A DNA stretch of 64,000 bases from an uncultured Bacteroidia bacterium (lineage in GTDB: Bacteria > Bacteroidota > Bacteroidia > Bacteroidales > UBA932): assembly GCA_902801205.1 (NCBI GenBank), contig CADCHE010000010.1, forward strand, positions 22,368-86,367, read 5' to 3'. The notes under the pieces were generated by a model, which was not told the origin of the DNA, made no database searches, and saw nothing but the letters and a program-made list of their open reading frames with translations. Shown here one piece after another: positions 16,522-64,000 of the stretch (within the stretch, counting starts at the first letter, position 1; the number at the start of each line of letters is the position of its first letter). Both the position numbers and the translations under genes were made by a program.

Positions 16522-17493
16522 TCACTTTCCCGCGGGGAAAAGGGAATCCACAACCAGCAGGTCCAATTTCAGGACCCGTCGGATCTGCTGATTCGAAGCA
16601 TGATACTTATAATGGAGTGTCCGGGCGACCGCTATTTTCTCATCAGGATCGAGCAGCGATGGCCGGTCTACCCTGTAGTCCCTTTGACTGATCATCCTGG
16701 CAACCGGGTATATTTCCTCGTCAGACAAGACAACCAGATCCCCCAGCCGGCACGCTTCCTCACTGTATGCTTCCATATTCTTTGAAAGCGCGTAGAAGTA
16801 ATGATGCGCATCACGGAACAGCGGTTCCCCAAGGTCAAAACGGATATAACTCGCCTGCTCGATCATGTCACCCCGAACGGTCAGGTTGTCCGGAAGCGAA
16901 ATCCTGCTACGGAACGACAGTTTGCGCTTTTGGCGGAAAGGTATCCTATTGAAAACCGTCCCCAGCTTTCGTTGCGCTGAATAATTGAAGTACAATGCAC
17001 CCCCGCTCCAAGGATAAGAATAGGGCGTGAACCTCCGATACGCAACAAACCCGTTTCGATGTATATACGCTATTTCGTTACGCACCATCTCCAGGCTGTC
17101 GACCGCGACAGGCTCGTCACACCGAAAGGAACCAAGGTCACAAAAACGACCGCCCGATTGTAAATGTTTCCGCAACCGGTAACGAAACAACTCGACGAAG
17201 CGAAAACAACCCGAACGCTCTCCAAGAAAAAGCGCATGGATATGGTTACTCATATGCGCATCAGTCAGCACGACAAGTCCTGCCTCCTCCGCACTGATCG
17301 CCATGTTGGAAACAGAAAAACGATAATCCCTTTCAGAAAGATTCAGCACCTCCGTCGATATCCCCGGAGTAAAGACATGCCAAACTCCCCCATATCGTTG
17401 AAGCAAAGCGTTAAAATGATCCGAACATCTTTTCTCCCGGTCAGAGAAAGAAACACCGCGCGAACTGGACGCATCTGAATAGAACTTATCCAT
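16522..17493 (-). CDS. HUH/Y1 transposase-like protein (RAYT-like)
   Basis: ATG at 17493 gives 323 residues; a TTG two codons upstream is not needed. The protein carries the HUH metal-binding motif in AHMSNHIHALFLGE (His84, Ile85, His86) and the downstream helix RNEIAYIHRNGF, whose Tyr143 fits the nucleophile of single-strand Y1 transposases. YPWSGGALYFN is also typical of REP-associated tyrosine transposase (RAYT) relatives. The C-terminal 150 residues are an extra domain of unknown role. No flanking insertion-sequence ends were seen. The 124-bp palindrome array lies 120 bases upstream. RAYTs are normally single-copy, chromosomal and linked to REP sequences, which fits. Confidence 0.8.
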   Translation of the reverse strand: MDKFYSDASSSRGVSFSDREKRCSDHFNALLQRYGGVWHVFTPGISTEVLNLSERDYRFSVSNMAISAEEAGLVVLTDAHMSNHIHALFLGERSGCFRFVELFRYRLRKHLQSGGRFCDLGSFRCDEPVAVDSLEMVRNEIAYIHRNGFVAYRRFTPYSYPWSGGALYFNYSAQRKLGTVFNRIPFRQKRKLSFRSRISLPDNLTVRGDMIEQASYIRFDLGEPLFRDAHHYFYALSKNMEAYSEEACRLGDLVVLSDEEIYPVARMISQRDYRVDRPSLLDPDEKIAVARTLHYKYHASNQQIRRVLKLDLLVVDSLFPAGK

Positions 17494-17614
17494 TACCAAT
17501 ACCTAACAACTACTATCTCACGCCACCGTGGCAATGATGATCAAAAGTGCAAATAAAAAACGGAACTGACAAATGTTTCGGTCACATTTTCTCCTCTCTC
17601 AGCAGTTGAGCGAC
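17494..17614. promoter_or_regulatory. Upstream region of transposase-like gene
   Basis: About 120 bases separate the transposase-like start from the palindrome array. They are more AT-rich than the surroundings and presumably hold the promoter. I could not find a convincing TTTG/TAnnTTTG pair. Confidence 0.4.
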
Positions 17615-18175
17615 CTCCCCGGGGTGCGCTGGACAGGGGATTCGCACCGCAGATCCGCCGACGAGTCTCCCGGAGTGCAACAGGCCGAGGTTTTGCACCT
17701 CGGACCCGCTCGAGCAATTCCACAGGCCCGCCAACGAGCTCCCCGGGGTGCGCTGGACAGGGGATTCGCACCGCTGATCCGCCGACGAGTCTCCCGGAGT
17801 GCATTAGACCGGGGATTTGCACCGCTGATCCGCCGACTGAAGTGCGCCCCGGAGTGCATCAAACCGAGGTTTTACACCTCAGGTCCGCTCGAGCAATTCC
17901 ACAGGCCCGCCAACGAGCTCCCCGGGGTGCGCTGGACAGGGGATTCGCACCGCTGATCCGCCGACGAGTCTCCCGGAGTGCAACAGGCCGAGGTTTTGCA
18001 CCTCGGACCCGCTCGAGTAATTCCACGAGCCCGCCAACGAGCTCCCCGGGGTGCGCTGGACCGGGGATTTGCACCGCTGATCCGCCGACGAGTCTCCCGG
18101 AGTGCTACAGACCGAGGTTTTGCACCTCGGACCCGCTCGAGTAATTCCATGAGCCCGCCGACAAGTCTCCCCGGA
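17615..18175 (-). repeat. Tandem array of alternating palindromic units (REP-like), 124-bp period
   Basis: Nine hairpin units lie in one orientation, with cores starting near 17621, 17672, 17745, 17796, 17851, 17924, 17975, 18048 and 18099. Spacing alternates 51 and 73 (sum 124), except for one 55-base step. Two types mostly alternate. Type A has GTGCG pairing with CGCAC. Type B has GTGCAA pairing with TTGCAC, plus a nested CCGAGG/CCTCGG stem. Stem bases co-vary between units, which argues for selection on the fold. Units share a CGYCRACGAG block. All long frames here are repeat artefacts. The array lies between the RAYT-like gene and tRNA-Arg. Confidence 0.85.
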
Positions 18176-18240: not shown

Positions 18241-18247
18241 GCAAATG

Positions 18248-18319
18248 TAGTCCCAATAGGAATCGAACCTATATTTAAGGTTTAGGAAACCTCCGTTCTA
18301 TCCGTTGAACTATGGGACC
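18248..18319 (-). tRNA. tRNA-Arg (anticodon CCT)
   Basis: The reverse strand folds into a full cloverleaf. It has acceptor GGTCCCA/TGGGACT, a D arm beginning GTTCAACGG, anticodon stem GAGGT/ACCTT with loop TTCCTAA (anticodon CCT), and T arm TAGGTTCGATTCCTA. The 3' CCA is not encoded. It reads AGG codons. Confidence 0.95.
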
Positions 18320-61867: not shown

Positions 61868-62520
61868 GCGGGGCCCTACTTCCCTTCCCCGTCCCGGCGG
61901 GCATCCGCCCGGAACTCTACCGGTATGTCAGTGAGGAGATCATTCCCCGCTATGCCGCCTTCGATGCCGCACACCGGGAAGGGCACGCCTGCCAGGTCAT
62001 CCGGGAGGCGCTTCACCTGGCGGAATCTTATCCGGAAGCCGACCCGGAAATCGTCTTCACGGCGGCCGCCTTCCACGATACCGGGCTGAGCGAAGGACGG
62101 GAGCACCACCACAATGTCTCCGCCCGGATCATCCGGGAAGATCCGCGGCTGTCTGAATGGTTCTCCCCGCAGCAGATCGAATGCATCGCCCAGGCGGCGG
62201 AAGACCACCGGGCCTCTTCCAAGACGCCGCCCAGGAGCTTGTACGGCATGCTGATCGCCGAAGCGGACCGGACCATCGACCCGGAAGACATCCTGCTGCG
62301 CACCCTCCGGTTCAGCCTCGACCACTACCCTGAACTGGACAAGGAGGGCCATTGGAACCGCTGCCGGCAACATCTGGACGAGAAATACGGCGACGGTGGC
62401 TACTTGAAGCTTTGGATTCCGGGTTCACAAAACGCGGAACGCCTGGAGGCGCTCCGCGTCATCATCCGGGACCGTGCCCTGCTCCGCCGCCATTTCGAAC
62501 GGCTCTGGGCGTCCCGCTGA
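61864..62520 (+). CDS. HD-domain phosphohydrolase-like protein
   Basis: The 218-residue protein has HREGHACQVIREALHLAES, then TAAAFHDTGLSEGREHHHNV with the HD pair, and AQAAEDHRASSKTPPRSLYG with further His/Asp ligands. This is the metal-binding order of small HD-domain hydrolases acting on nucleotides or phosphorylated signals. It overlaps the thrA stop (ATGA). Its last codons and stop lie in the first copy of a 47-bp tandem duplication. The substrate is unknown. Confidence 0.83.
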   Translation: MSGALLPFPVPAGIRPELYRYVSEEIIPRYAAFDAAHREGHACQVIREALHLAESYPEADPEIVFTAAAFHDTGLSEGREHHHNVSARIIREDPRLSEWFSPQQIECIAQAAEDHRASSKTPPRSLYGMLIAEADRTIDPEDILLRTLRFSLDHYPELDKEGHWNRCRQHLDEKYGDGGYLKLWIPGSQNAERLEALRVIIRDRALLRRHFERLWASR

Positions 62521-62576
62521 TCAGTTGAATCCGCCGCCATTTCGAACGGCTCTGGGCGTCCCGCTGATCAGTTGAA
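62483..62576. repeat. Perfect 47-bp tandem duplication at convergent gene ends
   Basis: 62483-62529 and 62530-62576 are identical. Each copy carries the TGATCA where the HD-gene stop and the opposite-strand esterase stop abut. The HD gene uses the first copy and the esterase the second, so the duplication inserted 47 bases between them without altering either protein. Confidence 0.95.
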
Positions 62577-63663: not shown

Positions 63664-63937
63664 GAGAGAGTAGGCAGCGGATACAAACAAAAGGTCCGGG
63701 CCTTCGATGTGAAGGTCCGGAACTCGAAGAACGGCACGGGGCCCCCGCTGGGGCAAAATCCCCAAATAGAGAGTAGGCAGCGGATACAAACAAAAGGTCC
63801 GGGCCTTCGATGTGAAGGTCCGGACCTCGAAGAACGGCACGGGGCCCCCACTGGGGCAAATAGCCCAATAAGAGAGTAGGCAGCGGATAAAAACAAAAGG
63901 CCCGGGCCTTCGATGTGAAGGTCCGGACCTCGAAGAA
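63664..63937 (-). repeat. Three tandem 103-bp repeats, each with a terminator hairpin, behind the 5S rRNA
   Basis: Units start near 63664, 63767 and 63870 (exact 103-bp period; the last is cut by the 5S end). Each carries, on the - strand, a hairpin of about 12 bp ending in a T-rich tail (near 63693-63721, 63796-63824 and 63899-63929). Each also carries GCTGCCTACTCTC, the exact reverse complement of the 5S rRNA 3' region. Frames across this block are artefacts. Confidence 0.85.
63888..63929 (-). terminator. First terminator downstream of 5S rRNA
   Basis: On the - strand GGTCCGGACCTT pairs with AAGGCCCGGGCC (two G-U pairs possible) around a 7-base loop. TTTTGTTTTTAT follows. It lies about ten bases past the 5S end. 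Confidence 0.85.
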
Positions 63938-64000
63938 CGGCAGCTGCCTACTCTCCCACCTGGTGGGGCAGTACCATCGGCGATGGCGGGCTTAACTTCT
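63938..64000 (-). rRNA. rrf: 5S ribosomal RNA, 3' part (cut by window edge)
   Basis: The - strand reads AGAAGTTAAGCCCGCCATCG, then CCGATGGTACTGCCCC, then GGTGGGAGAGTAGGCAGC. This is the conserved 3' half of Bacteroidota 5S rRNA. The 5' half, with 23S and 16S presumably upstream on this strand, lies beyond the window. Confidence 0.95.

Follow-up and report, generated by a model that had tools for sequence, protein, structure and literature searches.

The window, a stretch of 64,000 nt analysed at its full length, comes from an uncultured gut Bacteroidia bacterium (assembly GCA_902801205.1, contig CADCHE010000010.1, positions 22,368 to 86,367 of the forward strand). Its reverse strand carries at 16522-17493 an intact open reading frame of 323 aa for an HUH/Y1 transposase-like protein with a RAYT fold and a C-terminal helical part. 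These coordinates apply to a start at ATG; with an in-frame TTG start the frame would extend to 17499. The frame with His84-Ile-His86 and Tyr143 described in the initial annotation was borne out. The codons of the HUH motif are located at 17236-17244 and that of the presumed catalytic tyrosine, in a YxxRN motif, at 17065-17067, both on the reverse strand, and two alignments, one of 39 and one of 60 homologues, showed no variation at His84, His86, Tyr143 and Asn147. With respect to the class 2 Y---NP motif, Y and N are invariant in the 39-row alignment and the P position is mostly G or A, with P itself in some rows, e.g. L073, L075, L076, L078 and L079.

The fold of the window protein was found to be nearest to that of E. 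coli RAYT (the TnpAREP fold). The secondary structure of the protein model places C-terminal helices at residues 283-320 (16534-16647, reverse strand), which by eye appear to be HTH-like. The window protein gave no match to the curated family models PF01797 and NF047646, and members of its family gave weak matches (17/39 and 14/39, respectively, with E up to 0.1).

The window gene adjoins a DUF177 gene. Six other genomes (L298-L303) have a sister Y1 gene at this place, conserved, in the opposite orientation and without 51-nt arrays; the DUF177-side Y1 genes may reflect either an insertion site common to both or domestication. The same genome as the window encodes a second family member (G000:C2 L002:1372-2370), 26% identical over the match, at which a 73-bp tandem repeat is found downstream (2531-2857), with a weaker copy upstream, in place of the 51-bp phase. 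A third Y1 gene (L295, G000:C8:100782-101138) is a weak match and falls outside the family, together with long Y1 genes from G044 and G266.

A tandem hairpin array is located upstream of the gene at 17611-18175, with a TRF score of 594, far beyond chance. It neighbours a tRNA-Arg(CCT) gene (18247-18319, reverse strand; ARAGORN and Rfam tRNA) that is outside the element. Nine 25-nt hairpin cores start at 17624, 17675, 17748, 17799, 17854, 17927, 17978, 18051 and 18102, and are spaced by 51, 73, 51, 55, 73, 51, 73 and 51. The nine units, their common orientation and the 51+73 rhythm described previously were all recovered; one single unit is irregular, and the rhythm arises from doublets in tandem. 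In the most plausible reading, the array consists of four doublets, each of two hairpins 51 bp apart, and one single unit: A + B at 17624-17699, A + A-like at 17748-17823, a single B-type hairpin at 17854-17878, A + B at 17927-18002 and A-like + B-like at 18051-18126.

Co-variation of the stems had also been noted; within the window array it is weaker than described, and it is the family as a whole that supports paired stems. When folded as single-stranded DNA, the nine units gave z values of -1.72 to +1.27 relative to dinucleotide shuffles, and the doublet gave +0.03. The B units favour a different stem, and the unit at 18051 has a G/T mismatch within the stem. Because the units fold no better than shuffles, the window copy may be worn. 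The array is one-sided, the downstream side of the gene having a single stem-like match, 599 nt away and inside the neighbouring gene. The description of the array as private was nearly correct, but searches of the same genome found one more doublet, at C12:108721, where a single-mismatch copy is accompanied at 52 bp by another hairpin that is worn. Elsewhere in the window, 62483-62576 is a perfect 47-bp tandem duplication, and 63665-63942, at the contig end, is a 103-bp tandem repeat (2.7 copies) within which an inverted repeat was recognised by eye.

Family distribution and the 51-nt spacing

Of 200 genomes from the genus, 165 had homologues of the window protein, and single genomes reach at least 11 matches. 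Across the order, a search with profile A1 gave some match in 94/247 genomes. Among the matches listed, those above 180 bits came solely from two genomes of this genus, and the best outside it scored 47.5 bits, the matches there being mostly to the HUH core of 190-240 aa proteins. Those relatives that have names are MAGs of Bacteroidales, for the most part recovered from the guts of ruminants and other animals. Submitters named two of them Candidatus Cryptobacteroides and single ones Rikenellaceae or Bacteroidaceae; given these mixed names, the genus name is presumptive and the limit of the family is inexact. No family member was found in the viral contigs searched. The loci analysed are a fetched subset of the homologue matches, of which 147 had a gene of at least 280 aa (L029 and others were shorter and were left out) and 118 non-redundant ones were kept, 69 of them with full flanks.

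At least three like hairpins with 49-53 nt spacing were found within 800 bp of the gene in 54 of the 69 full-flank loci, leaving 15 without such an array. The same criterion identified 1/69 at a distal 1600-2400 bp and 0/69 in shuffled sequence. When the spacing condition was omitted, at least three like hairpins were present in 58/69 proximal, 9 distal and 0 shuffled regions. Self-similarity was also analysed at lags of 40-80 in the 118 loci with a threshold of 0.57. It was detected in 52/109 upstream and 42/108 downstream flanks, and 87 of these 94 proximal matches had a lag of 50-52. The controls gave 3/86 and 4/84 in distal flanks, 0/118 in genes and 0/217 in shuffles.

The centre-to-centre spacing was 51.11 nt with a standard deviation of 1.00 (246 neighbour pairs, 92 loci). 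Neighbour pairs were accepted at 40-62 nt, so the narrow peak at 51 was not imposed. Hairpin length varies (sd 3.7 per locus, locus means 23-39 nt) and is offset by the length of the linker (r = -0.99). The hairpin nature of the units was checked on 77 TRF units with a period of 49-53, picked regardless of pairing; their median folding z was -1.67, with 56 below -1 and 9 above 0.

In other Y1 groups, the array criterion identified 0/16, 0/7, 0/9, 0/7 and 1/18 loci. At least three like hairpins were found in 9/16 HTH-type Y1 rows and 13/18 order-level RAYT rows, some at a steady 47-48 or 83. Hairpin repeats, perhaps phased, therefore extend more widely than the family, and the 51-nt step is the family's own. 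Phasing as such may not be peculiar to the family, since other RAYT-type groups have regular steps. Two RAYT-type genes of other groups, L251 (G202) and L276 (G489), have four and six like hairpins, mostly in 47-48 nt steps, possibly a different ruler.

Stem specificity, gene-free copies and an empty site

The stem defined upstream of a gene recurred downstream of the same gene in 26/33 loci; in the flanks of other genes less than 60% identical it was found at a mean of 2.1%. An identical stem 7-mer was shared by 55% of pairs with at least 75% protein identity, 29% of those at 60-75% and about 2% of those below 40% (91 loci). The correlation of stem with protein identity is modest (r = 0.18), yet none of 1000 permutations gave a value as high. 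No stem was shared in any of 22 within-genome pairs. The loops read in the order A-rich, GC, T-rich. A GT[AG]G foot was found at 8/460 hairpins, and at 23/460 on the other strand, against a background of 211/7602 (2.8%). In L068 and L185 the loops of the upstream and downstream arrays are oppositely oriented. The genes L126, L039 and L040, of one orthologous group, have stems that vary from gene to gene, and the two flanks of L126 do not match each other either, as though specificity for the stem were shifting.

Copies of the stems were also found away from the genes. The L068 stem had 38 matches in its genome, G081, compared with 0-7 in nine others. Of the 38, 10 are beside the gene, 7 are scattered and 21 make up five gene-free arrays with a 51-bp step, two of which have gaps of two or three steps. 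In G141, another stem had 17 matches, compared with 0-6 in seven other genomes; nine of the 17 are beside the gene, a gene-free array with a 52-bp step accounts for four, and four are scattered. A gene-free 51-bp array in G081 (G081:C9 L293:2987-3231) is in frame within an ORF of 1108 aa that is oxidoreductase-like by eye, where it reads as 17-residue repeats with no stop.

The L049 stem (TTGTTCC/GGAACAA) had 16, 34, 21, 14, 17 and 16 matches in the six genomes with the gene, and none in five of the six without the gene at that site, the exception being G099 with 9. The expectation that units also occur elsewhere, and in genomes that carry the gene, is thus in agreement with these data: the window genome has one worn orphan doublet, and relatives with the gene have many gene-free doublets or arrays. 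For G121, G085 and G168, where the match sets are full, 26 gene-free places were found, of which 21 had two or three hairpins with a 51-52 bp step. Of 22 fetched doublets, 19 had a spacing of exactly 51, and these aligned as direct repeats; A-richness served to choose the orientation, which is certain only where both loops are asymmetric. Conservation over these 19 doublets was 1.52 bits in the hairpins, 0.76 in the linker and 0.22-0.26 outside, and it stops at the hairpin edges. No family gene was found in 29 fetched orphan stretches of 1.2-6.3 kb, and the same search found the gene in 4/4 controls.

The array-gene-array element of L049 is 1412 bp long and is preceded by a gene that, from its end, we take to be thyA. 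In both G099 and G167 the flanks of this element are present without it. Its flanks of 40 and 88 nt align to a 119-nt intergenic stretch of G099 with a score of 53, the maximum of 200 shuffles being 16. In G167 the two genes adjoin with almost no spacer, so the junction is not visible there. The empty site, one element in two genomes of which one is clean, could reflect either insertion or loss. The flanks align well past the arrays in 9 of 14 close pairs, indicating that the elements mostly stay put.

Relation to known systems and competing explanations

The family resembles RAYT/TnpAREP systems (E. coli rayT, PDB 4ER8; Pseudomonas REPINs, PMC3116915) in the fold of its Y1 HUH protein, in palindromes that flank the gene and in gene-free palindrome doublets that are dispersed; tandem REP arrays also occur in those systems according to the text available for them. 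It differs from them in its protein of about 320 aa, its many genes per genome and its whole-element empty site, and its hairpins lack a GT[AG]G foot, unlike REPs. Furthermore, REPIN doublets are inverted repeats in the published text available, whereas those of this family are direct with a fixed 51-52 nt. The layout of a RAYT/REP system proposed in the initial annotation is therefore upheld in amended form, with direct doublets, no GT[AG]G foot and an array that is not wholly private. The term BIME in its strict sense does not apply, as the doublets are direct and not inverted. A distinct Bacteroidota branch had also been suggested, and this holds: the fold is nearest to E. coli RAYT, and in a quick tree the 61 family rows form one branch (94), outside the nine IS200 rows, which form another (97).

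Other described groups share some of these features. TnpAY1 subclass 2.6, in the accessible part of its description (PMC6006769), comprises Bacteroidetes proteins of median 179 aa with a YIH[QN]NP motif and 'atypical secondary structures'. It is similar in its host phylum, in hairpins without GT[AG]G and in having copies elsewhere in the genome, but the family is set apart from that published description by its length of about 320 aa and its YxxRN motif; a spacing rule or direct doublets were not found in that part of the description. The TIRYT proteins of subclass 2.1, with a C-terminal HTH (PMC6006769, PMC3733652), share the C-terminal helical part, and according to the portions available some members have flanking repeats that make up small families. 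However, they have terminal inverted repeats, many with a GGGGWSAS consensus, and PMC6006769 found no REP-like hairpins for them. Among fetched HTH-type Y1 genes, 0/16 rows (14 distinct) had a 49-53 array, and one had four hairpins at 47-48. IS200/IS605 elements (IS608, ISDra2) have in common with the family the HUH/Y1 fold and hairpins at the element ends. A search of the open-access literature found no published report of this family, most subscription papers being outside its scope.

Since the gene is accompanied, in most of the relatives studied, by a hairpin sequence of its own at intervals of about 51 bases, and pairs of these hairpins are dispersed in the genomes inspected, the system appears to belong to the known RAYT/REP repeat-spreading systems as a branch not yet described. 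The gene family is probably a RAYT-like system, on a distinct branch, that spreads stem-specific hairpin doublets about 51 nt apart. The Y1 protein would recognise, in single-stranded DNA, hairpins with a stem specific to that gene copy, and would do so in pairs, about 51 nt from centre to centre. The direct doublet, two hairpins and a linker of about 85 bp in all, would be mobilised in trans, as RAYTs are thought to do with REPINs. Head-to-tail amplification of doublets next to the gene, and of some at other places, would produce 51-bp arrays or, as in the window, doublet arrays with the 51+73-bp rhythm, and the whole array-gene-array element would occasionally move or be lost. The analysis itself demonstrates the gene family, its fold, the 51-nt ruler, the specificity of the stems, their dispersal and co-occurrence with the gene, and one empty site; binding, the dimer geometry, cleavage and transfer of single-stranded DNA and the mechanism of amplification are what we infer here. 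The window copy itself counts against this explanation, as it is poor, with a one-sided array, shuffle-like folding and one worn doublet elsewhere. Further points against it are the missing GT[AG]G foot, the tendency of elements to keep their place, the restriction of the empty site to one whole element that may have been lost, the 15 loci without such an array and the regular steps seen in other RAYT-type groups.

The possibility was considered that the arrays serve a domesticated regulator derived from a Y1 protein, either as autoregulatory sites or as transcript hairpins, with mobility long gone and the dispersed copies being bystanders or extra regulated sites. The first hairpin is a median of 16 nt after the stop codon and the last upstream hairpin a median of 131 nt before the start, which would suit regulation, as would the persistence of most elements in place. 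However, the gene-free doublets are sharp-edged and in unrelated surroundings, none of the 29 orphan stretches has a family gene, and the residues H84, H86 and Y143 are invariant, so that this explanation appears unlikely. Still less probable is an ordinary insertion sequence of the IS200/IS605 type with multiplied hairpin ends and transposition of the whole element. Hairpins with 49-53 spacing on both sides of the gene in 79/116 loci and the whole-element empty site would be expected from it, but the IS200 rows are a separate branch, and the motif is YxxRN and not the Y---Q of IS200 (PMC6006769, in the part accessible). In addition, the fetched loci include no near-identical copies, protein identity in 25 within-genome pairs reaching at most 68%, and gene-free places outnumber the L049 gene in G121, G085 and G168.

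Slippage of replication at the palindromes next to the gene, which would make the arrays passive minisatellites with no role for the protein, would account for tandem arrays that are unequal in length and differ between orthologues. This is very improbable: the 51-nt spacing is kept across unrelated sequences by compensating linkers, both sides of a gene share the same stem, TTGTTCC doublets are almost confined to genomes with the gene, and 51-bp hairpin arrays are not as frequent in distal flanks.

With regard to the preferred explanation, that of a RAYT-like system spreading hairpin doublets, a bolder version is conceivable, although we lean slightly against it. The family may be a RAYT clade that is still mobile, whose ends are phased hairpin pairs and whose transposase measures 51 nt; direct doublets would be its non-autonomous elements, each copy would have its own stem 'address', and orthogonal REP-type systems would exist side by side in one genome. 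In the text available of PMC8266576, tnpAREP genes are mostly single copy and without evidence of mobility, and how REPs spread has not been elucidated. The family provides dozens of related protein-hairpin pairs for which stem, loop and spacing are known, together with a strict rule for the spacing and an empty site for one whole element. These are material with which to test recognition, by stem or loop and of one hairpin or two, and the movement of the gene together with its repeats.
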